Virus record (IMG/VR): IMGVR_UViG_3300025890_000193
Coordinates: 1-21,130 of that record
Direction: 5' to 3' (one strand)
Source of the DNA: a virus
Length of the DNA stretch: 21,130 nt
The translations under genes were made by a program, and so were the position numbers. Positions 3,901 through 21,130 of the stretch are shown here, piece by piece (position 1 is the first letter of the stretch; every line of letters begins with the position of its first letter). The notes under the pieces were generated by a model that saw nothing but the letters and a program-made list of their open reading frames with translations, made no database searches and had not been told where the DNA came from.

Positions 3901-6900
3901 ACTTTGAGATAACTGATGGTACTGTAGGGGATATTGCAATACTTAGTGGTACTTACTACTTTAAAGTATATTTAGTAAGCTTAAACGGGATAAGAAGTCC
4001 TGTAACTGAAAGCGGTGCAAAAACTATAGACTTCAACAGAGCTGTAGGTCCCGCAGAAGGTAGTATAGGTACTACTAGCCATTTTATTAACTTTATTGGA
4101 AATATTAGTGGAGACTTTAGTCTTGAAGCGGGTAAAGTAACATTTAGCCCACAAAATCTTTTTCATAATGACGGAAGAAACGAACATGCAGTCACTAGTC
4201 AAGCTCAGCTTGATTTTACAGGATTAGACCATACTTCTACAACAGGTGGAAATGAAGGTTATGTTTATTTTGATCACAGTGCTGATGCCTTTATAGCCGT
4301 TGCTTTCGATGTAACTTCAGGACAATTTTATCCTGTAGGAAGTAGTGTATTTGCTACTGCAACAGGTACACTTACCTCTGCAAATCGAAAAACCTGGACA
4401 GGATTAGATAGTACTAATTTTGATGGGGATTTGTCAAAAGGTAATGTATTTAAGTTTACTCACAGTAGAAGCGGAAGTTCCATAGACTACTATCACAGAG
4501 TAAAAGAAATTATATCTGACTCTGAAATGCTATCCTTTGTGTCGTCAAACCAAACTATAACTAACATAGATAATCAAGCATTTTCAAAACCTAACTTTTT
4601 AGCGGACTTCGTAACTGATACTATTATGGGTAAGGTTACAAAGACAGGAGCGAGTACTTACACTTTACAGAAGTATGGGTCGTCTCAGGGCGAATCTGCT
4701 TATGGTGTAGGCGCTACAAATCTAAACTTTACATTTGACGCTAATCTTGATGGAACAGTAACAAATGAAAGTGCCTATAGTTGTGACTTCATTATTAGAA
4801 AAGGGGGTCAGGATTATACTTTTGCAAGTAGCGGTACAACTCAACATACCTTTGGATTATCTTTACAAGCAAGAACTGGCTTTGATAATGATAGTGATAT
4901 AGTTATTAACTCGTCAACTGGACAAGTAACAATCGGCGATGGGGATATGGACGCCCATACTGCAGCCACTGCAACAATACGAATATTTGATAGAGGACGC
5001 TCAGACTTACTAATTGAAGATAAGATATTATCTTTTACAAAGTCTTCACAAGGAACGGCAGGGGAAGATGCAAAACTTGTAGTTGTAACTCCTAGTTCTC
5101 AGATAATGACAAAAGAGGTGTTCCCAGAGGATTATGGATCGACGTCTACTTTCTTCCACCCTACAAGTATAACAATTACAGCACAATGTACAAATACGAC
5201 ACAAAATGGAACATGGTCAAACTCTGGAGGTAGTATAACTTCTAGCAATACCATTACAAACGGGAAAGCTACTGCCACAGTAAATTCTACTCAACTTGTA
5301 GATGATATGACAATTACATATACATTACATGCAGACGATGGCGGTGCTTCAGATACTACTCAACTCCATTTACTAGAAATGTTTGCTGGCTCAGTGCAGC
5401 CAATTCTTTCTAATCCTGCTCATGTGCTTCCAGCAAGTAAGGCAGGAGTAGTGAGCGACTATACTGGTAGTGGTACACGTATAGAAGTGTACCAGGGAAC
5501 AAATCGATTAGACTATGATGGAGTAGGTACTGCTGCAGGACATTGGAAAGTAACTGTAGGGAATGTAGGAGATATTACAGAAGGCACCGCAACCTCTGCA
5601 GGAACAAATGGCGGCAGATACGCAAATATCGGAGATCATTCCGGCATGTCCAATTCTGTAGATTTTAAAACAATTACCTACACTATTACAGGTAAGGCCA
5701 CAGATGGTACTGCATTTAGTTTTGCACAGCCCCAAACAATTACAAAAAGTAAAACAGGGCAAGACGGTACTGCTGGGCAAAGTGTAAAACACGAAACTAT
5801 TTTTAGAAAGAATGTCAGTACTATCGACGACGACGTAGGTACTTTTGCTAGTCCTCTTACAGGTAATAGTGATTGGTCTCTTTCAATGCCCGCCCTTACA
5901 GCAAATGGAGATATAGCATACGCATCCTCTAGAACTTTTACTTCAGATGGAGCGTCTCCCCAAGATGCAACTTGGTCAACGCCTATAGCCGCACTTACGA
6001 GAACAAATGGTACAAATGCTACTCCATTAACAATTACTGATACTGACACCTCAGTTGCAGGTGAAACTACACTTACCTTTAGTGATGACTCTACCTTTAC
6101 AATAAATGATGGAGACAACGGTGACGATGGAGATGGTATAGATGTAATTTATCAAAATTCAAGTACAGCCCTTACAACCGCTCCAGCTGATTCAGCAGGT
6201 GCACCAACTGGTTGGTCATTCACCGCTTCGGCTCCTTCGACTAACGAAAAGACTTATATTTCAATTGGGGTACGAACACAAAATACAGGTTCATATGATT
6301 GGTCAGTTCCTTCTGCAATAACAGCATTTGACGGGGATAACGGAGCAGGAGTAAACTTTGTATTCGCGAGAAGCGCTACTAAACCAAACACTCCTACAGC
6401 AAACGGACTCAACATTCCTAGTCAGGACATACAATGGTATGATGATCCCCCAAGTGGAACTACTACTTTATGGTCTTCAAAAGGTACAGTAGGAGTTAAC
6501 GGAACAGCATATGCATGGGGCGCAGTATTCCAAGTAGAAGGAAGCGCAGTAGCGGAATTAAAATGCTACTCGGATGTTGTAGCAAATAATGGAGCTTCTC
6601 CTACTAAACCTGGTACTTCTACTTATAATGCAACTAATTCTACTCTTACACTTAACGACACAGATTGGAATCTTACTCCTCCAAGTGTAACAAACAATGG
6701 AGATACTGTATATTCTTGTACTGTTCTTGTAAGTGGGTCACCTAACGCTACCGCTATAGCTATTGGTACCGGCTGGTCAACGCCAGTAATACATACTAGA
6801 AAAACAGATGGAGCAACAGGAGACCCCGGTAAACTAGTACAAGAACTCAGACTCTATAAATTACAAAGTAATTGGACAGCTACCGGCACTACTGTAGCAA

Positions 6901-8678
6901 ATACAGCACCTACGTCAGGTGTTTATACTTTTAGTACAGGAGCCTTAGCATCTATAGCTAGTGGCTGGTCGCAAACAAGACCTGCAGTAACTGCTGGATA
7001 CTTTGTTATAGAATCAGCAGCCTTGGCTACAGAATCTAGTTCAGGAAGTGATACGTCTTCAGCGCTAACTTGGAGTACTGCATCTGTAAGCTCAGAAGGT
7101 GTTCAGTTTACTAATTTTATATTCTTAAATCATAACGGTAGTCCAGGAACTCCAACTGCAACAGCATACCCAGATTTACCAACAAACAACCCCAACTCTG
7201 GAGATAACTGGAGTGACAGTCCACCAGCCGCAGTATCAGGAAAACAATTATGGTCTTCAAAGGGCGTGGCTAAACTTGCAGGAAGTTTCCCTACTTTTAC
7301 ATTTAACTATACGTGGGAAACTCCAGTAGTTCATGTACAAAACAAGGCGGATGTAGGTCTAGGCTCCGTAACAGACGGTGCGGACGTTACTGCAAATAAT
7401 ACAGCTAACAATGTTTCAAATGTAGGAAACCAAACTGTAGCAAATGCTCAAGATGGAGTAGCAAGAGCTAGAGCAGGACTAAATGCAGACGGAGATGTTC
7501 AGAGAGAAGTTCCACAAAATAAAGGCGGAACAGGTCTTACTTCGGCAGGAGCTGCTATTCAAAATAGTAAAATCACAACAAATGCAAATGGCACGCTTAA
7601 CTATGATGGTACTACCGCTGCTGCTCCATCTTTAGCAAGTATAAGCGGAACACTCCCAAGAACAAAAGGTGGGTTTGGTATAGATATAGATGCTCTAGTA
7701 GGTAACGCAGCAAAAATTCCAAGATGGAATGGCTCTGCTTGGGTAGCAGATACACCTACTGCATTCAGAGGAACTATTGGAGCTGGTACATCAAACTTTA
7801 GTGGAAGCTATGCAGACTTGTCAAATATTTCTATTACTGATGCACAATTAGCAGGTAGTTCTACAATTACAAAAGAAGGGGACTTTGAGTTTAATAGTAT
7901 TGGTGTATCTAGCGGTTCGGCAGCTAGTTCCTTCAGCACAACAGACGGCTCTAGCTATACTGCAAATAACACAACAGGTACAATCACAGTTGACCACCCA
8001 TTAGATAGTGTGTCTTCTCAAAGTTGTACTTATACATGGCTTAGAGATGGCGACAATATTCGAGCAAATACAGGCTCGGGTAGTGAAGGATTTGCACTTA
8101 CAAATACAGGCACAGGAGCAGATGCATGGACATTTAGTCCCGCTACCTTTACTGCTGCAACAAGTAAAACTGTTACTGTTACACATACCCAAAGTGGGCT
8201 TACAATTACAATGAGTTGTTTTGTTATTGATACAAGTTCTTCTGGAGGCGGAGGCGGCGGAGGTGGAGGCTGTTTCCTTCCTGGCACTCTCGTAGACTTA
8301 GAAGAAGGACAACAAGCTATCGAAAGTTTAAAAGTAGGACAAAAGATAAAGGGTGCTACAGTTACTAAGAAAGAATCATTTGAAGTTGATTATTGGTACA
8401 AGCTAAATGATATACAGATTACAGCAGGACACCCAGTATGGATAGAAGATAAAGGCTGGTCTTGTATTGACCCAGGAGAGTACTATAGGGAACATCAGTT
8501 ATTTGGTCATAAAATAGAACTAGAGCCTAAACAAATAGAAATAGGCGATATGACTACTAATGGTTCTATAGATATAATTAACAGAATTGATGAAAAACAA
8601 ACTGTATGGAATATTACAGTTGATAACGAACACACCTATTATGTAGACGGCATGTTAGTACATAATAGTAAACAATAG
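918..8678 (+). CDS. Giant tail-tip / host-specificity protein, lambda gpJ-like, with C-terminal Hint (mini-intein) domain
   Basis: This 2586-aa protein is about twice the length of lambda gpJ (1132 aa). Residues about 30-65 (SAAFIDALCEGPIKGLVYGD) are the gpJ family N-terminal signature. Residues about 500-610 hold the conserved 'YGLGNYV..KWELFQIGRYCDELVP' and 'GMAYWLNGEAFVVQD' segments. About 928-1040 looks like a fibronectin type III domain (WDPA..., HYEVEFSQDG, YYFKVYLVSLNG). Then come Ig- or lectin-like modules separated by short Gly-X-X linkers (GTAGED about 1380, GQDGTAGQS about 1614, NGDDGDG about 1733, GDNGAG about 1805, GATGDPG about 1965). At least one module is duplicated: compare DDPPSGTTTLWSSKG and DSPPAAVSGKQLWSSKG. 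An NKGGTGLTSAG fibre motif lies near 2204. Gly2443-2451 leads straight into an intein-like domain (2452-2583), annotated separately. gpJ is the central tail tip that contacts the host receptor. The start is an ATG one base after the previous stop, with a weak AGGA upstream. Confidence 0.9.
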   Translation: MKKNQHLISIRGAKGKGGGGSTFEADDNMFARQSAAFIDALCEGPIKGLVYGDASILIDEVRLRNVNQSTGRISQKANFNNFTVITKNGDATQVVDADFFAEYPSAATTKDIGSAELLENEPQYFTISSGTFEKRETDYIKITVSTTGMSAITKTGDNKGDINTTVVYFHIDFNWVDNSGVHHTRQMFDTGFSGKVSGKYAHTFGFNIETIKETSTINDWSVRVTKLTASPESSDSKEVQNAIYVDSIEAAIADKLEYPYTAYVGGVIDAEAFNSVPARGYEIDGKLINIPTNMYPCDYNGRKLTLSSASGFSVGDVISQTLSISSLTAAGNDEEGYTATATVPAHGVATGETFKATIATTSATDEEHWEGEFVCVAASATTFTYTLNKPFDDLADAYKILAGGTTCGGTKTAVMFSGGLVDKIAGNTLYLRNVAGSTSAVNGTISNGTTTGTVTSQSQVFIPANYRRIKSTEKPGTAEQDWDGTYYLSWCNNPAWVYHDLIVNKIYGLGNYVEQSQVNKWELFQIGRYCDELVPAGVAAADLLSIHCTADTNYIPSGSSGEHEPRFSANLVISGKQEAYKVLNDVSSIFRGMAYWLNGEAFVVQDSEKDPVYQFTNANVINGEFKYEGTGNKTRTNSIMVNWNNPQDYYRSRTEIVELEESLQKDTEFVKAEATTAFGCTSRGQARRLGKWKLLTNNWNTNTVTFETSLNAAFLRPGDIVQVIDQHKEGKSWGGRISSSSSTTAINIDRKPSGFGNTSAESGYAVGDYRLTLSYVGYKAILAQDTATISSTAYVRGAHLTSITTEEAAARLQDDSGNLVFVQWTPFTFTETKTVSGVSNNGKTLTVSSAFNTAPTQEQVWILSRAALATGKTKKEAKLFRMVGMVEKDKNLYEITALEYNSSKFDAVDKNEALTQYREIYLPDSFKEVPAVTNLDVEPRIRATGSGGTVNSLVVDWDPATNSDGTLYNSVRHYEVEFSQDGEKWHKAGTNQSTDFEITDGTVGDIAILSGTYYFKVYLVSLNGIRSPVTESGAKTIDFNRAVGPAEGSIGTTSHFINFIGNISGDFSLEAGKVTFSPQNLFHNDGRNEHAVTSQAQLDFTGLDHTSTTGGNEGYVYFDHSADAFIAVAFDVTSGQFYPVGSSVFATATGTLTSANRKTWTGLDSTNFDGDLSKGNVFKFTHSRSGSSIDYYHRVKEIISDSEMLSFVSSNQTITNIDNQAFSKPNFLADFVTDTIMGKVTKTGASTYTLQKYGSSQGESAYGVGATNLNFTFDANLDGTVTNESAYSCDFIIRKGGQDYTFASSGTTQHTFGLSLQARTGFDNDSDIVINSSTGQVTIGDGDMDAHTAATATIRIFDRGRSDLLIEDKILSFTKSSQGTAGEDAKLVVVTPSSQIMTKEVFPEDYGSTSTFFHPTSITITAQCTNTTQNGTWSNSGGSITSSNTITNGKATATVNSTQLVDDMTITYTLHADDGGASDTTQLHLLEMFAGSVQPILSNPAHVLPASKAGVVSDYTGSGTRIEVYQGTNRLDYDGVGTAAGHWKVTVGNVGDITEGTATSAGTNGGRYANIGDHSGMSNSVDFKTITYTITGKATDGTAFSFAQPQTITKSKTGQDGTAGQSVKHETIFRKNVSTIDDDVGTFASPLTGNSDWSLSMPALTANGDIAYASSRTFTSDGASPQDATWSTPIAALTRTNGTNATPLTITDTDTSVAGETTLTFSDDSTFTINDGDNGDDGDGIDVIYQNSSTALTTAPADSAGAPTGWSFTASAPSTNEKTYISIGVRTQNTGSYDWSVPSAITAFDGDNGAGVNFVFARSATKPNTPTANGLNIPSQDIQWYDDPPSGTTTLWSSKGTVGVNGTAYAWGAVFQVEGSAVAELKCYSDVVANNGASPTKPGTSTYNATNSTLTLNDTDWNLTPPSVTNNGDTVYSCTVLVSGSPNATAIAIGTGWSTPVIHTRKTDGATGDPGKLVQELRLYKLQSNWTATGTTVANTAPTSGVYTFSTGALASIASGWSQTRPAVTAGYFVIESAALATESSSGSDTSSALTWSTASVSSEGVQFTNFIFLNHNGSPGTPTATAYPDLPTNNPNSGDNWSDSPPAAVSGKQLWSSKGVAKLAGSFPTFTFNYTWETPVVHVQNKADVGLGSVTDGADVTANNTANNVSNVGNQTVANAQDGVARARAGLNADGDVQREVPQNKGGTGLTSAGAAIQNSKITTNANGTLNYDGTTAAAPSLASISGTLPRTKGGFGIDIDALVGNAAKIPRWNGSAWVADTPTAFRGTIGAGTSNFSGSYADLSNISITDAQLAGSSTITKEGDFEFNSIGVSSGSAASSFSTTDGSSYTANNTTGTITVDHPLDSVSSQSCTYTWLRDGDNIRANTGSGSEGFALTNTGTGADAWTFSPATFTAATSKTVTVTHTQSGLTITMSCFVIDTSSSGGGGGGGGGCFLPGTLVDLEEGQQAIESLKVGQKIKGATVTKKESFEVDYWYKLNDIQITAGHPVWIEDKGWSCIDPGEYYREHQLFGHKIELEPKQIEIGDMTTNGSIDIINRIDEKQTVWNITVDNEHTYYVDGMLVHNSKQ
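8271..8666 (+). other. Hint / mini-intein (bacterial intein-like) domain at the end of the gpJ-like protein
   Basis: Residues 2452-2583 (132 aa) carry the full set of Hint signatures. Block A starts at Cys2452 with CFLPGTLVDLEEG and continues IESLKVGQKI. Block B is T2502-A-G-H2505 followed by PVWI. Block F has NEH(2572)TYYVDG, and block G is MLVH2582-N2583. The next residue is Ser2584, a valid +1 nucleophile, followed only by Lys-Gln and the stop. The length is that of a mini-intein or BIL-type domain; no homing endonuclease fits. In this family Cys1 attacks the peptide bond before it, and cyclisation of the terminal Asn cuts the bond after it. With a three-residue C-extein, the natural result may be splicing to Gly-run-SKQ, or cleavage that releases the Hint domain. 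Which occurs is inference. The preceding nine glycines would become the exposed end of the tip protein. Confidence 0.88.
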
Positions 8679-15314: not shown

Positions 15315-18300
15315 ATGGCAATTTATGTAAATGACGGGGGTACACTTCGTACAATCCGCTTTATTGCGGTTAATGATGGCGGCACGATTCGTCGTGTCCA
15401 TCACGTTTATGTAAATGACGCGGGAACTTTAGAAGGCCCCTTTGATGCTATACATAATACTGCTAGAAGTACTAATACTCAAACTACATTTGTATCTGGA
15501 ACGCAGGAGACTTCGTTTAGTACAACTTGTACATTTGAAACAAACATAGATACTGCTACAACTTTCTTAACTGTAAAAGCAACAAATACAGTATTTGATA
15601 CTAGTAGAAGTACAACTTGTACTTTTACTACTGCTAGATCAACAACCACAACGTTTAATACTACTACGAACTTTACGACTACTACAGCGTATAATACTAC
15701 TAGAGATACAACGACTACTTTTAATACAACTACAAACTTTACTACAACGACTGTATATAATACAACGAGGGCAACTACAACCACGTTTGATAGTACTACA
15801 ACATATACAACTACAACCACGTTTGATACTACTAAAAGTACTACAACTGTATTTAATACAACTACAAACTTTACAACAACAACTACGTATAACACGACGC
15901 GTACGACAACGACTGTATTTAATACAACAACTAACTTTACAACTACAACTACATTTGAAACAAGTAAGGCAACTACTACTGTCTATGACACTACAACAAC
16001 CTTCAACACTTCATATGATACAACAATAAATACCAGTAGGTCTACAGGATTTACAAACAGTACTACAAATAATACTAATACTTGTTACAATACAACCTTT
16101 ACAAATTCTACTACTAGAAATACTAGTACTTCGTATAATACGACCTTTACAAATAATACAGCAAGAAATACAACTACTTCGTATAATACGAGCTTTGCAA
16201 ATGATACGACGAGAAGTTCAAACACTTCTTTCATAGTAGCTACAAATACAAGTTTTAGTACAAACACAGCAAGAACTACTGATAATGTAATTGTAAGTAC
16301 AAATACAAGTTTTAGTACAAACACAGCAAGAACTACTGATTTAGTAATCGTAGCTACAAATACTTGTTACAGTACAAATACTTCATATGCTTGTGCATTT
16401 ACAGTAGCTACAAATACTTCTTACAGTACAAACACAGCAAGAACTACTGATAATGTAATTGTAAGTACAAATACAAGTTATAGTACTAATACTTGTAGGG
16501 GTACGAATACTAGTTATAATACAAGTTTTACAAACAATACAACTAGAAATACGAATACAAGTTACCAAAGTACGTTTACAAACAACACTGGTGCCCATAC
16601 GAATAACACCAATACTTCGTATACTACAAACTTTACAAATAATACTGGTGCGCACACAAATAATACGAATACTTCTGCGATTGTAGCAACAAATACAGCA
16701 AGAAATACAAATACATGCTTTATAGCAAGTACAGGTTTTACAAATAATACTGGTGCTCATACAAATAACACCAATACAAGTTATCAGAGTACCTTTACAA
16801 ATAATACTGGTGCTCATACGAATAATACCAATACAAGTTATCAGACTACCTTTACAAATAATACTGGTGCTCATACGAATAATACCAATACAAGTTATCA
16901 GACTACCTTTACAAATAATACTGGTGCTCATACGAATAACACGAATACTTGTGCTATTATTTCAACTGGCTTTACAAATAATACTGCAGCAGCAGCAAAT
17001 AATACGAATACTTGCGCGATTGTAGGAACAAATACAGCAAGGGGTACTGCTCTAGCTGCTGTAAATACAAATACAGCGTGGTCAACAACTACATCGTATG
17101 CTACTCAGTTTACAAACAATACTCAATGGTTTATTGATGCAGAATTACCTTTAGGTACTCGAGCTACCAATACTTCTAGAAATACTCAGGGAGCCGCTGT
17201 AAATACTGCGGGAACTAATAGTACAAATACTTCTAGAAGTACAGGTTTTACAAATAATACAAATACATGCTATATTGTAGCAACGAATACTTGTTACAGT
17301 ACTAATACAGCAAGAAATACAAATACTAGTTATATTGCATCTACAAATACTTGTTATAGTACGAATACTTCTTATGCTTGTGGATTTATTGTAGCAACGA
17401 ATACTTCTTATAGTACGAATACTTCTTATGCTTGTGCATTTATTGTAGCAACGAATACTTCTTATAGTACGAATACTTCTTATGCTTGTGCATTTATTGT
17501 AGCAACGAATACTTGTTATAGTACTAATACAGCAAGAAATACAAATACTTCTGCGATTGTAGCAACTGGCTTTACAAATAATACAAATACATGCTATATT
17601 GTAGCAACGAATACTTGTTATAGTACTAATACAGCAAGAACTACTGATAATGTAATCGTAGCTACAAATACTTGTTACAGTACTAATACTTCTTATGCTT
17701 GTGAGTTTATAGTTAGTACTACATATTCTACTAATACTTCGAGAACAACTGACAATGTAATTATTTCAACTGGGTTTACCAATAACACAGGTCAGCATAC
17801 GAATAACACCAATACTTCGTATACTACAAACTTTACAAATAATACTGGTGCTCATACAAATAACACCAATACAAGTTATCAGAGTACCTTTACAAATAAT
17901 ACTGGTGCTCATACGAATAACACAAATACTTCGTTTACTACTTCGTTTACAAATAATACAGGTCAGCATACGAATAATACAAATACTTCGTTTACTACTT
18001 CGTTTACAAATAATACAGGTCAGCATACGAATAACACCAATACATGTGCGACTGCAAATACTACGTACTCGACAAATACAAGTAGACTAACTAATGTAGA
18101 CTCAATTGCTACAAGTTATAGTACTAACACTAGTAAAGTAACCCATGTAGACTCAATATCTACTAGCTATAATACGAATACTAGCAGACTAACAGATGAT
18201 GTTATTGTATCCACAACTTTTAATACAAATACTGCTAGAACTACAACGTACGAAACTACATTTGCAACGTCTAGGTCTAGTTCAAGAGCTACTTCAACGA

Positions 18301-18926
18301 GTAGAAGTACAACTACTGTTTATAATACAACCACTACAACAGCAAGTTCAAGGTCTACTTCAACAAGTAAATCTACAGTATGTACTTTTGAAACAAATAC
18401 AACAACAGCAAGTTCAAGAGCTACTCTTACGAGTAGATCTACAGTTTCAGTGTATGCAACAACACTTGGAACAATTACAAGTAGAGCTACTGCAACAAGT
18501 AAATCTACAGATACTACGTTTAATACGTCAACAACAACAGCAAGTTCAAGAGCTACTTCAACAAGTAAATCTACAACTTGTACGTTTGAAACGACAACAA
18601 CAACAGCAAGTTCAAGAGCTACTTCAACAAGTAAATCTACTGCAACTTACTTTGATACTACTAGAGATACCTCGACAGTCTTTGAGACAAGTAGTTCAAC
18701 AGGGTCTGTCTTTAATACTACCAGAGACACTTCAAGTGTTTACAATACTACTAGAGCAACAGACACCACAATCACAACTGAACATTTGACGACTATTGCA
18801 ACTGCAACAGACACAAATATTTTTGAAAGAATAACAGCCTCTCAAGCTGGGACTATATTCGATACTGAAGTATCAAGCGCTTCTGATGTCGGAGCCTCCT
18901 ATTGGGACGGTTCATCATGGAGCTAA
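15315..18926 (+). CDS. Giant Thr/Asn/Ser-rich repeat fibre
   Basis: This 1203-aa protein is one continuous frame. Three VNDGGT-type repeats with a 14-residue period (residues 5-10, 19-24, 33-38) form an attachment-like N-terminus. The body is almost entirely Thr, Asn and Ser with spaced aromatics. Residues about 110-219 are five 22-aa units (TTTTFNTTTNF..., with Arg/Lys near the end). About 235-960 mixes 18-aa units (ATNTSYSTNTSYACAFIV), 19-aa units (FTNNTGAHTNNTNTSYQST) and shorter NTARTTDNVIV units. About 987-1118 has six 22-aa units (SSRATSTSKST...). The last about 50 residues are unique and end YWDGSSWS. About two dozen Cys occur at set repeat positions, in place of Ser (NTNTC) or in YAC(A/G/E)F. 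There is no signal peptide or membrane segment. AGGA lies about 8 nt before the ATG. A long beta-solenoid or brush-like fibre is inferred; I recognise no named family. Confidence 0.8.
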   Translation: MAIYVNDGGTLRTIRFIAVNDGGTIRRVHHVYVNDAGTLEGPFDAIHNTARSTNTQTTFVSGTQETSFSTTCTFETNIDTATTFLTVKATNTVFDTSRSTTCTFTTARSTTTTFNTTTNFTTTTAYNTTRDTTTTFNTTTNFTTTTVYNTTRATTTTFDSTTTYTTTTTFDTTKSTTTVFNTTTNFTTTTTYNTTRTTTTVFNTTTNFTTTTTFETSKATTTVYDTTTTFNTSYDTTINTSRSTGFTNSTTNNTNTCYNTTFTNSTTRNTSTSYNTTFTNNTARNTTTSYNTSFANDTTRSSNTSFIVATNTSFSTNTARTTDNVIVSTNTSFSTNTARTTDLVIVATNTCYSTNTSYACAFTVATNTSYSTNTARTTDNVIVSTNTSYSTNTCRGTNTSYNTSFTNNTTRNTNTSYQSTFTNNTGAHTNNTNTSYTTNFTNNTGAHTNNTNTSAIVATNTARNTNTCFIASTGFTNNTGAHTNNTNTSYQSTFTNNTGAHTNNTNTSYQTTFTNNTGAHTNNTNTSYQTTFTNNTGAHTNNTNTCAIISTGFTNNTAAAANNTNTCAIVGTNTARGTALAAVNTNTAWSTTTSYATQFTNNTQWFIDAELPLGTRATNTSRNTQGAAVNTAGTNSTNTSRSTGFTNNTNTCYIVATNTCYSTNTARNTNTSYIASTNTCYSTNTSYACGFIVATNTSYSTNTSYACAFIVATNTSYSTNTSYACAFIVATNTCYSTNTARNTNTSAIVATGFTNNTNTCYIVATNTCYSTNTARTTDNVIVATNTCYSTNTSYACEFIVSTTYSTNTSRTTDNVIISTGFTNNTGQHTNNTNTSYTTNFTNNTGAHTNNTNTSYQSTFTNNTGAHTNNTNTSFTTSFTNNTGQHTNNTNTSFTTSFTNNTGQHTNNTNTCATANTTYSTNTSRLTNVDSIATSYSTNTSKVTHVDSISTSYNTNTSRLTDDVIVSTTFNTNTARTTTYETTFATSRSSSRATSTSRSTTTVYNTTTTTASSRSTSTSKSTVCTFETNTTTASSRATLTSRSTVSVYATTLGTITSRATATSKSTDTTFNTSTTTASSRATSTSKSTTCTFETTTTTASSRATSTSKSTATYFDTTRDTSTVFETSSSTGSVFNTTRDTSSVYNTTRATDTTITTEHLTTIATATDTNIFERITASQAGTIFDTEVSSASDVGASYWDGSSWS
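15642..15971 (+). repeat. Five 66-bp (22-aa) tandem units, protein-conserved
   Basis: Units begin at 15642, 15708, 15774, 15840 and 15906. Each encodes TTT(T/V)F(N/D) - TTTNF - TTTTxY/F - xTxK/R. The encoded residues are conserved, but the Thr and Asn codons differ freely among units (aca, acc, acg and act are mixed). This points to old copies held by selection on the protein rather than recent DNA duplication. Confidence 0.85.
16582..16914 (+). repeat. 57-bp (19-aa) repeats, FTNNTGAHTNNTNTSYQ
   Basis: Copies anchored on the NTGAH codons begin at 16582, 16639, 16744, 16801 and 16858; a further partial one begins at 16915. Spacing is 57 bp except for a 105-bp step from 16639 to 16744. The units at 16801-16857 and 16858-16914 are identical over all 57 bases, showing a recent duplication. 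More copies of the same unit lie at about 17780-18040. Confidence 0.9.
16737..17920 (+). repeat. 89-bp exact direct repeat pair
   Basis: Bases 16737-16825 and 17832-17920 are identical by direct comparison. The copies are offset by 1095 bp, exactly 365 codons. Recombination between them would remove or add 365 codons without shifting the frame. Confidence 0.85.
17391..17552 (+). repeat. 54-bp (18-aa) tandem units, ATNTSYSTNTSYACAFIV
   Basis: Units begin at 17391, 17445 and 17499 at the codons for VATNT; the third diverges after about 25 bases into an NTARNTNTSA segment. The first two differ from each other by very few bases. The unit also appears in older, scattered form around 16350-16420, 17280-17390 and 17590-17710. 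Confidence 0.85.
18273..18668 (+). repeat. Six 66-bp (22-aa) tandem units, SSRATSTSKST
   Basis: Units begin at 18273, 18339, 18405, 18471, 18537 and 18603. Each encodes (T/A)SSRAT-STSKST-xxxF/Y, with Arg and Lys six residues apart. Units 18537 and 18603 are nearly identical in DNA; the others are diverged. The period equals that of the first repeat block (22 residues), though the residues differ. Confidence 0.85.
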
Positions 18927-18929
18927 AAT

Positions 18930-19124
18930 ATGGCACAGCCAAAAGAAGATAAATCTCACAATTATAGAAATAGTGATATAACAGCTGATTATGTTAACAA
19001 AAAAATGGAAGGACTAATGTCTGCCCTATTTGATACAATCGGCGAAAATGAAGAAAGAATAAAAGACTTGGAAATGCAAGTTTGGAAGTTAACTGAGCAA
19101 GTAGAGGGCAGAAATGTCTCTTGA
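18930..19124 (+). CDS. Small coiled-coil protein, unknown
   Basis: This 64-aa soluble protein has a basic, polar N-terminus (MAQPKEDKSHNYRNSDITAD) and then a helix (about 22-60). Its heptad-like hydrophobics (VNKKMEGLMSALFDTI, IKDLEMQVWKLTEQV) predict a short coiled coil. GGAG (18919-18922) lies 7 nt before the ATG, and the gene begins 3 bases after the repeat-fibre stop. It overlaps the next gene by 11 nt. Given its place it may trimerise or chaperone the fibre, or assist the next enzyme. No family is recognised. Confidence 0.7.
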   Translation: MAQPKEDKSHNYRNSDITADYVNKKMEGLMSALFDTIGENEERIKDLEMQVWKLTEQVEGRNVS

Positions 19125-20016
19125 TCAGTTATCAATAAATGAAAAGTTAGGGGACGTCCCTACTCACTTCATGAAATCAGGTAGCTGTATGCCACCAAAA
19201 GCTAGATTAGATATACTAGCAAAATTTCGTGAAGAAACTGTACCTGAAGAATATAATGGGTGTTCATTTGAATATGACCTTTGGTATAATACTAATGAGT
19301 TACATACTATTAGAACATTTTTGTATACAGATTTTTTAGGGGGTGGAATATTCTACCGAGTAAATAGTGTAAAGATAAACGATGCAGTTATGCACAGTAT
19401 TGCTAATTCAGATATAAAGATTGATGAAGAAAGAATACAAAAAATAATTGATAGTTTAGGCAACAAGTACCAATTAAAGTTTAATAGAGCTACACATGAT
19501 AAAGTAGTCTTCCCTCCAGGAAGCAACTTAATACAAGGTGGCAAAAATGTACTTGATTGGAAAAAGCTAGACCATATGGTTAATAATGAGGGGTATGTAA
19601 TTAAACCACACCCCATTACAGCGCACATTTGGTGTGCTAAGTATCGAGAAAGATACGGAAAAGATAAAGTATTAGATAAAAAGATTGGAGGACATGAGGT
19701 TCTTCAAAGATGTACGGATATGGCATTTTGTCCTAATAGTCAGATGGGCTTTGAAGCCTTACTGCTAGGGAAAAATATCCATTCAGTAGCTACTCCTAGA
19801 GTTGCTAGAGAAAAGAATCATCTTACTTATGAAGCAATATATCAAGGAATCGCAGGAAAAGCGTGTGGTTCAAGAACGGCTCTCATGAAAATCTTATCTA
19901 GTAAAAGATCAGGCATAGTTTTTCATTTTGATGAAGATGCAAATGAAAGAGTAGAAAGGTATTTAGAACAATTTTGGGAATTTACTTTTAAAGGAAGAGA
20001 AAAGGTATTTAAATGA
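19114..20016 (+). CDS. Capsule (KpsC/KpsS-like) glycosyltransferase-like protein
   Basis: This 300-aa soluble protein shows features of the GT-B capsule polysaccharide synthesis family that includes the Kdo transferases KpsC and KpsS. The clearest are IKPHP (K164-P-H-P167), then S209-Q-M-G-F-E-A-L-L-L-G-K followed by a strand and ATP(R)V. In that family the 'KPHP' and 'S.GFEALL.GK' pair line the nucleotide-sugar site. The region between (GHEVLQRCTDMAFCPN) fits the strand-helix order of a Rossmann half. The N-terminal half is unlike any domain I know. The start ATG at 19114 overlaps the previous gene by 11 nt and has GAGGG 5 nt upstream. It ends in an ATGA overlap with the next gene. A sugar-transfer role is fairly likely; the acceptor (host surface glycan or the phage fibre) is unknown. 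Related capsule enzymes in host genomes suggest possible acquisition. Confidence 0.7.
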   Translation: MSLDQLSINEKLGDVPTHFMKSGSCMPPKARLDILAKFREETVPEEYNGCSFEYDLWYNTNELHTIRTFLYTDFLGGGIFYRVNSVKINDAVMHSIANSDIKIDEERIQKIIDSLGNKYQLKFNRATHDKVVFPPGSNLIQGGKNVLDWKKLDHMVNNEGYVIKPHPITAHIWCAKYRERYGKDKVLDKKIGGHEVLQRCTDMAFCPNSQMGFEALLLGKNIHSVATPRVAREKNHLTYEAIYQGIAGKACGSRTALMKILSSKRSGIVFHFDEDANERVERYLEQFWEFTFKGREKVFK

Positions 20017-21002
20017 TAGATATAGTAATTTTATGTGAAGAAATAAACACACAATTAACTCTGAGTTCTTTATTGAACAATTCGGAGAACTTCCGCTTGC
20101 ATTTATTTTGTAGAAGGGAACAAGCCTACGACAAGCTTAAACCTACTATGGACTGGGCTATTAAAAACTTTAGAGAAGTTCATGTATACCAATCCCCTTT
20201 TAAACACAGAGGTGAAGGCTCCCAAAAACTTGCCAGAACTATTTTACAATTTAGAGAAAAATGGAAAGACAAAAACCCTCCTGGAGGGCCAATAGAGAGA
20301 GTTATTGTGCATACCCAAGGTGCAAGAATATTTAATGCACCATTTAGAGGCAATGTTCCTACTGTAAAACAGATGGGGGACAACTTAGTATTTTTCTCTA
20401 GAAAGAATCAGTACTTTGACCACCCATTTTATGGAAACTACTACAAAATTTTAGATTTACCAGCTACTAAAGATGAGAAAAACGAACAATTCTTACTATT
20501 GAATTGGAAGTTATTTAAAGACTTTAGTCCTCAACATTATTTCTTAAATGGAAAGCCAAGCAGAGTCGTAGATAAGACTAGTGAAACACCTAAATACTTA
20601 CATGATACAGATTCATTTATTTTATCTGCTAATAGCGCTCAGCTAATTGTTAATCTTAAGAAAAGAAAATATGGTTGGATGCCGCTGTACTTTGATATGC
20701 AAGTTGATGAACTAATAAAGAAAGAGGCAATCGGCCCTAAAGATGTAGTAAATCACAATACAATGATGCGAAAATCTTTTTCTATGTGTGCTACTACAAA
20801 TGACTTATATGCAAATTATTTTGATATGCCTACACTACATTATATGGCGATTCCTTGGGACTTATGGGCAAATAAAATTGATGATATTCCCTTACCAATT
20901 AGATATCAAGGATTTAACGAAAAACTATTGACAAAAGCAGATAAGCAGAAAAAGTACTTAAGAAAAGTATATGAAGCTGGGTACTTGCTAGGAAAAATCT
21001 AA
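20013..21002 (+). CDS. Unrecognised 329-aa protein, possible sugar-transfer partner
   Basis: The start ATG overlaps the previous stop as ATGA, so the two genes are translated together. The protein is soluble and starts with a hydrophobic strand (MIDIVILCEEINTQ) and a helix (LTLSSLLNN), then a second strand (FRLHLFCRRE). This resembles the opening of a nucleotide-sugar binding fold, but no clear DXD or other catalytic motif is present; H-D-T-D-S (about 197) is the only candidate. The middle has many aromatic and basic residues (NQYFDHPFYGNYYK). The end is Lys-rich. Position next to a KpsC/S-like protein suggests a joint pathway. I do not recognise a family, and the sugar link is inference. Confidence 0.65.
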   Translation: MIDIVILCEEINTQLTLSSLLNNSENFRLHLFCRREQAYDKLKPTMDWAIKNFREVHVYQSPFKHRGEGSQKLARTILQFREKWKDKNPPGGPIERVIVHTQGARIFNAPFRGNVPTVKQMGDNLVFFSRKNQYFDHPFYGNYYKILDLPATKDEKNEQFLLLNWKLFKDFSPQHYFLNGKPSRVVDKTSETPKYLHDTDSFILSANSAQLIVNLKKRKYGWMPLYFDMQVDELIKKEAIGPKDVVNHNTMMRKSFSMCATTNDLYANYFDMPTLHYMAIPWDLWANKIDDIPLPIRYQGFNEKLLTKADKQKKYLRKVYEAGYLLGKI

Positions 21003-21130
21003 TGTTCCGCAGTATTCAGTTGATATCTCAGCTAATTAGATACAAACCCAATCAACCAGATAATGCAGACCTAATAGCTAAGGTTGTATTACACTTCACA
21101 GGAAACTCAATCGATCACCAAATAGAACTC
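21002..21130 (+). CDS. Unknown gene, 5' end only
   Basis: An ATG overlaps the previous TAA by one base (TAATG). The frame is open for 43 codons to the window edge, starting MFRSIQLISQLIRYKPNQP and going on to VVLHFTGNSIDHQIEL. It continues the co-translated chain, so it is probably a real gene. Nothing can be said of its role from this fragment. Confidence 0.55.
   Translation, partial: MFRSIQLISQLIRYKPNQPDNADLIAKVVLHFTGNSIDHQIEL

Follow-up and report, generated by a model that had tools for sequence, protein, structure and literature searches.

A putative glycosylation cassette behind a threonine-rich repeat fibre of a marine phage, and its recurrence beside threonine-periodic proteins in other phages

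What do glycosyltransferase-like genes do directly behind the gene of a phage fibre? The question is raised by a 21,130-base IMG/VR virus record, which was analysed as a whole and is termed the window here. The record carries a tail module of the lambda-J type, and behind this module, at the end of the window, lie a repeat fibre and a compact set of three further genes. The initial annotation offered two readings of these genes, either that they glycosylate the fibre or that they alter the capsule or LPS of the host. The gene order and coordinates that it gave (fibre, coiled coil, a KpsC/KpsS-like and an unrecognised protein, in overlapping or closely spaced frames) are exact; 3 nt separate the fibre from the 64-aa ORF, and the following junctions overlap by 11 nt and then 4 nt. 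The features of the locus are listed below.

15315..18926, + strand: Thr-rich repeat protein of 1203 aa, 34% Thr; putative distal fibre and proposed acceptor (ORF, composition, tandem repeats)
18930..19124, + strand: coiled-coil-like protein of 64 aa, kept between the fibre and gp300 (HMM of 43 distinct copies)
19114..20016, + strand: gp300, 300 aa, PHROG 26179, predicted GT-B fold, CMP-sugar-transferase-like (PHROG E 1.1e-41, AF2 pLDDT 88.5, structural matches to KpsC-N and WbbB)
19603..19614, + strand: KPHP, the (K/R)xHP CMP-binding motif at residues 164-167 of gp300 ([KR]xHP in 35/35 and 18/18 sequences)
19732..19749, + strand: PNSQMG segment of gp300, HMM-aligned with the SSQMG segment of KpsC (weak match, E 0.52)
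20013..21002, + strand: gp329, 329 aa, predicted GT-A fold, GT8/GT24-like, no DxD (AF2 pLDDT 89.9, structural matches)

In the fibre gene, 407 codons specify Thr, 168 Asn and 137 Ser. Its Thr fraction of 0.338 is the highest among the ORFs of the window, the next being 0.198, and its Thr codons are mixed (ACA 0.41, ACT 0.40, ACG 0.13 and ACC 0.06); therefore, the fibre is not a run of one codon. The tandem repeats were confirmed as real, and the fibres of the marine relatives keep their N- and C-terminal ends and vary in repeat length. The spacing of Thr is strongly non-random. An aromatic or basic residue is situated two positions before Thr at a frequency of 0.268, about twice the 0.138 ± 0.013 of shuffled sequences, and the patterns [FYW][DNE]T and [RK][DNSA]T occur 30 and 33 times against 6.7 and 6.3 expected from shuffles. 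The Asn-x-Ser/Thr sites, which had drawn attention to the fibre in the initial annotation, are indeed abundant, but the 93 sites are near the 75.7 ± 5.8 found in shuffles of the same composition and are therefore largely compositional; it is the Thr spacing instead that is common to the lineages described below. N-glycosylation at sequons, considered as the main idea, was rejected in view of these near-compositional counts and of the few sequons (5, 3 and 1) held by the Caulobacter repeat proteins. At the sequence level, the shared acceptor-like feature is regularly spaced Thr rather than Asn-x-Ser/Thr. In the marine phages the protein is encoded just after the final tail genes, which suggests a distal fibre as the substrate there.

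Sequence searches with gp300, gp329 and their profiles returned no significant PDB match, and structures were therefore predicted; the AF2 models were built from 35 relatives of gp300 and 40 relatives of gp329. The predicted structure of gp300 is the two-domain GT-B-type fold of the CMP-sugar (Kdo/sialic acid) transferases. Foldseek matched the model to WbbB with E 1.1e-4, and VIA gave KpsC-N (Z 9.8), WbbB (9.6), KrkA (8.6) and polysialyltransferase (8.4), where the rows of KpsC, WbbB and KrkA range from Z 9.8 to 8.1 and those of proteins other than these and polysialyltransferase do not exceed 7.7. The (K/R)xHP motif, described in PMC12887879 and PMC10148158 as a CMP-binding motif common to retaining Kdo transferases and sialyltransferases, is present in all 35 marine gp300 sequences (A3) and in all 18 sequences from five phage groups (A6). 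Across these five groups D55, N138, K164, H166 and T169 are invariant. Both sources also describe a QXXXD nucleophile motif common to retaining Kdo transferases, and this motif is not kept in gp300: any Q...D within the 50 residues before KxHP is found in only 7/35 (A3) and 5/18 (A6) sequences, and the invariant columns include no Q or D from the stretch before KxHP. Because the QXXXD of KpsC and WbbB is absent, gp300 as modelled is a relative of the CMP-sugar transferases rather than KpsC. The earlier description as KpsC/KpsS-like is supported by the predicted fold; it does not extend to QXXXD, and the Pfam Capsule_synth match, at 13.9 bits, stays below the threshold of 20. The predicted folds and the kept KxHP together point to glycosyltransferase folds, and make it very likely that gp300, as predicted, binds a CMP sugar. 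A scan of bacterial genomes with gp300 confirmed no relative, and a viral scan with the gp300 homologue of phage Lullwater as query found Lullwater itself only. No membrane segment was found in gp300 or gp329.

The last gene, previously left as unrecognised, can now be placed, since the model of gp329 has a clear GT-A, GT8/GT24-like fold, though one without DxD. Foldseek matched it to UGGT with E 1.6e-6, and in VIA the first matches are LgtC (Z 15.0, 227 residues aligned, 3.9 Å), GlyE (14.9) and UGGT (14.6); the rows of GT8/GT24 GT-A enzymes (LgtC, GlyE, glycogenin and UGGT) mostly lie between Z 13 and 15, with 211 to 233 residues aligned. The DxD expected after beta-4, its position taken from secondary structure, is absent in 40/40 members. 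A D-x-D at residues 198-200 is present in some members, in which only D200 is invariant across the family. The Pfam scan of the window proteins gave no match for gp329, and Glyco_transf_8 had none in the window or among the 40 family members (A4). Comparison of gp329 with KVP40.0257 (hhalign E 0.044, probability 1.2%) and with DLP6 gp003 (E 0.085) gives weak matches that do not establish homology. Among viral structures, gp329 matches best a protein of 250 aa, a length equal to that of DLP6 gp003.

Is the link between the enzyme-like genes and the fibre kept in relatives? The alignment scan with gp300 yielded 135 relatives, of which the best 80 were kept as 80 loci, and the scan with gp329 yielded 84, of which the best 80 were kept as 79 loci; the lowest identity to the window protein is 50% among the gp300 relatives and 30% among those of gp329. 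Linkage was counted over 57 distinct gp300 sequences, of which the 54 of at least 250 aa were used and three shorter ones left out. gp329 lies directly behind gp300 in 54/54, and a Thr-rich ORF is present upstream in 48/48 whose contig extends 700 bases or more on that side, and in 49 of the 54 in all. The reverse scan with the C-terminus of the fibre alone found 203 relatives, of which the best 80 were kept; among the 75 loci newly fetched in this way, gp300 is located within the next four ORFs in 74/74 readable ones, and the remaining locus is cut at the contig end. The coupling to a fibre, proposed initially as a matter for a survey of other genomes, is real and extends further than anticipated; it is found in every marine locus that could be read and recurs, with a Thr-rich protein as partner, in Vibrio phages and Caulobacter podophages. 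The marine counts come from a single lineage whose members have their structural module in common, and are not independent evidence of function.

Further glycosyltransferase-like genes are found downstream of the marine cassette on the other strand. A GT29-like gene and a GT-A-like gene are each present in 44/44 gp300 loci with more than 4.5 kb of downstream sequence; GT29 is above the Pfam cut-off in 11/11 copies scanned, and the GT-A-like protein shows D-x-D in the five sequences aligned. In L002, a contig near-identical to the window, the GT29 sialyltransferase-like gene is at 4170-4841 (-), beyond the window end, and is of the CMP-sugar type like gp300. The GT-A-like protein (217 aa, PHROG 28018, L002 7022-7675, -) contains the stretches LFCDGDFLW and HFTDGGPW and has homologues in DLP6 (43%), Pelagibacter phage Mosig, S-SCSM2R and Caulobacter jumbo phages. 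The ORF that is cut at the window end (21002-21130) corresponds to a Coq4-family ORF in this contig (3508-4173; 33.5 bits, cut-off 22.9), seen in 14/44 marine loci, and radical SAM and SDR-like genes (L002 4820-7086, -) are located downstream of the cassette. We also note that the J-like tail protein ends in a weak Hint/intein-like domain (window 8100-8675); an unannotated DLP6 ORF, which crosses the record ends and was read as two parts, resembles it at its end by eye only.

Cultured phages hold 45 records with gp300 homologues, namely 35 of Vibrio, 9 of Caulobacter and 1 of Stenotrophomonas phages. Seven KVP40-type phages among the 35 Vibrio records were examined (KVP40, D479, F86, QD01, 6E35.1a, VS2 and PVA8), and all seven have a Thr-period-4 ORF just upstream. 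The order in the annotated records is Thr-rich ORF, small ORF, gp300 homologue and a protein of 210-215 aa; VS2 is unannotated and was checked for the Thr-rich ORF alone. Among 270 ORFs of at least 100 aa in KVP40, KVP40.0254 has the highest Thr fraction (0.294, next 0.145), and an aromatic or basic residue is found two positions ahead of Thr at 0.48 against 0.21 when shuffled. The KVP40 cassette is located outside the tail gene block, and the Vibrio substrate may for this reason be another virion protein rather than a fibre. The Thr-rich ORF of F86 (L143 4840-5448) is unannotated in its record, and its counterparts in related phages are labelled hypothetical or "cell wall mannoprotein". Downstream of the KVP40 cassette is a radical SAM gene, together with QueC-like and phosphoribosyltransferase-like genes (L138 9113-12776).

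In the Caulobacter phages, the seven records with the repeat ORF are the same seven podophage records that have gp300. In Lullwater, gp41 has the highest Thr fraction among 36 ORFs (0.260, next 0.124), with a Thr autocorrelation of 0.49 at lag 4 and an aromatic or basic residue two positions ahead of Thr at 0.60 against 0.24 when shuffled. The sister podophages Percy and KSC possess neither the repeat ORF nor gp300. Their fibre measures 1013 and 1054 aa, against 408 aa in the cassette phages, with a common N-terminus, which suggests that the repeat protein there replaces the distal fibre and that the distal fibre is the substrate. According to PMC11053796, KSC, BL198 and ERS belong to one proposed genus, and its host table gives for Percy and KSC the host CB15, the same as for phages with both genes.

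Stenotrophomonas phage DLP6 is a looser case of the pairing, and Caulobacter phage Cr30 is a weak candidate only. In DLP6, the coiled-coil homologue adjoins the gp300 homologue, and gp265, ~15 kb from gp300 across the record ends, consists in much of its C-terminal half of a Thr-tetrad repeat; in this segment an aromatic or basic residue stands two before Thr at 0.46 against 0.18 when shuffled. In Cr30, a Thr/Tyr-rich ORF of 116 aa is situated directly upstream and has no period 4; its Thr fraction is the highest among the 86 ORFs of the 94 kb that were covered. The HMM of the 64-aa protein matches DLP6_001 (E 1.4e-6), KVP40.0255 (8.7e-5) and Cr30_252 (1.4e-3), of which the first two are in the cassettes of their phages. 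Searching cultured phages with the C-terminal 50 aa of the fibre gave four chance-level matches (E 0.8). The repeat region as query gave no match there, and the DLP6 repeat found only itself; since low-complexity sequence is masked, these searches are a weak test of how often Thr-periodic proteins occur in phages that lack gp300.

From these observations, we regard it as moderately probable that 18930-21002 is a phage glycosylation cassette and that its substrate is the adjacent Thr-rich repeat protein. The computed elements of this reading are the predicted glycosyltransferase folds, the invariant CMP-binding motif of gp300, the strict fibre link in the marine loci and the recurrence beside Thr-periodic proteins in unrelated phages. 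Gram-negative hosts make Kdo for LPS. Late in infection, gp300 would transfer a CMP-activated acidic sugar, possibly Kdo or another nonulosonic acid, and gp329 would transfer a second sugar; one of the two enzymes would initiate O-glycosylation at the Thr of the [aromatic/basic]-x-Thr repeats, and its partner would lengthen the chains. The coiled coil might hold enzymes and fibre together or aid fibre assembly, and in relatives the opposite-strand GT29-like and GT-A-like genes could add further sugars. A charged fibre with a coat of sugar would result. Several observations count against such a cassette: the lack of DxD in gp329 and of a conserved QXXXD in gp300, the place of the KVP40 cassette outside the tail block, the distance of the DLP6 repeat, the missing period in Cr30, the single lineage of the marine loci, and the weak matches between gp329 and the proteins that close the Vibrio and DLP6 cassettes, which do not establish homology.

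The same genes might act on the host rather than on the virion, altering its LPS or capsule and thereby blocking superinfection or re-adsorption of progeny, with adjacency to the fibre arising from co-evolution of receptor and fibre. The nearest structures make capsule or O-antigen, the additional opposite-strand GT-like genes adjoin ribonucleotide reductase and exonuclease genes, and in PMC7824862 glycosyltransferase clusters of jumbo phages are read as capsular polysaccharide modification systems. We nevertheless consider action on the host surface unlikely, as it leaves unexplained why the partner is always Thr-periodic in unrelated phages and why Percy and KSC, which share the host CB15, are devoid of both repeat and gp300. 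The lack of a membrane segment in either enzyme-like protein is weak evidence in the same direction.

Both proteins are devoid of a canonical catalytic motif, and a position directly behind the fibre gene is usual for fibre chaperones, which would fit glycosyltransferase-derived proteins that no longer catalyse and now help the repeat fibre to fold or assemble. This reading appears less likely still, since a chaperone does not need a nucleotide motif, whereas KxHP and the five invariant residues are kept in five phage groups, as they would be if the site were active or if it at least bound CMP. That the cassette was merely inherited with the structural module, with no functional link to the repeat protein, gains something from the fact that most marine loci are one lineage, so that 48/48 does not represent 48 independent events. 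It is nonetheless highly improbable, given that the pairing recurs in two or more additional groups of unrelated phages, that the most Thr-rich ORF of the genome is one or two genes upstream of gp300 in those groups, and that repeat and gp300 are jointly absent in Percy and KSC.

The glycosylation reading can be carried one step further, to a proposal that we make tentatively and hold with less confidence than the cassette itself. Phages may have mucins of their own, proteins in which roughly one residue in four is a regularly spaced Thr and which would be O-glycosylated by a phage CMP-acidic-sugar transferase of the gp300 family and its partners, while repeat protein, coiled coil and enzyme would move as a cassette between unrelated phages. 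If so, a charged, glycan-coated fibre could serve adsorption, shielding or stability, and the cassette would provide a sequence signature for finding glycosylated fibres as well as an annotation for PHROGs 26179 and 30602, both of unknown function. Virion glycosylation is so far known in a few mycobacteriophages, and a dedicated cassette that recurs in unrelated phages, next to a substrate recognisable by its Thr period, would show it to be widespread among phages as a strategy. In the literature searched, which covered a minority of subscription journals, the cassette is not described.

Several known systems come close to the cassette. The retaining beta-Kdo transferases KpsC (GT107), WbbB (GT99) and KrkA (GT140) resemble gp300 in the two-domain fold over most of the chain and have (K/R)xHP in common with it. 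They differ in their QXXXD and in their role, as they build capsule or O-antigen, whereas gp300 is situated beside a Thr-rich phage protein. The GT8/GT24 GT-A enzymes LgtC, GlyE, glycogenin and UGGT have the fold predicted for gp329, which differs from them in the absence of DxD and of a Pfam GT8 match. In mycobacteriophages (Che8 and relatives), as cited in PMC11256854 and PMC12619734, phage-encoded glycosyltransferases likewise modify virion proteins. The glycans there are carried by capsid and tail tube subunits, in contrast to the present candidate, a Thr-periodic repeat protein with CMP-sugar-type enzymes. The glycosylation loci of serine-rich repeat adhesins (SRRP) in Gram-positive bacteria likewise have a long Ser/Thr-rich repeat adhesin beside soluble glycosyltransferases; in the present cassette the glycosyltransferases are assigned by predicted fold only. 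GlyE, which has a role in an SRRP-type glycosylation locus, is among the nearest folds of gp329. GtfA and GtfB are the initiating enzymes of SRRP-type loci, and no family of this type was found in the nine window proteins scanned or in the eight downstream proteins of L002. The cassette described here differs from the SRRP loci in consisting of phage genes, in its CMP-sugar-type enzyme and in the 4-residue spacing of Thr.
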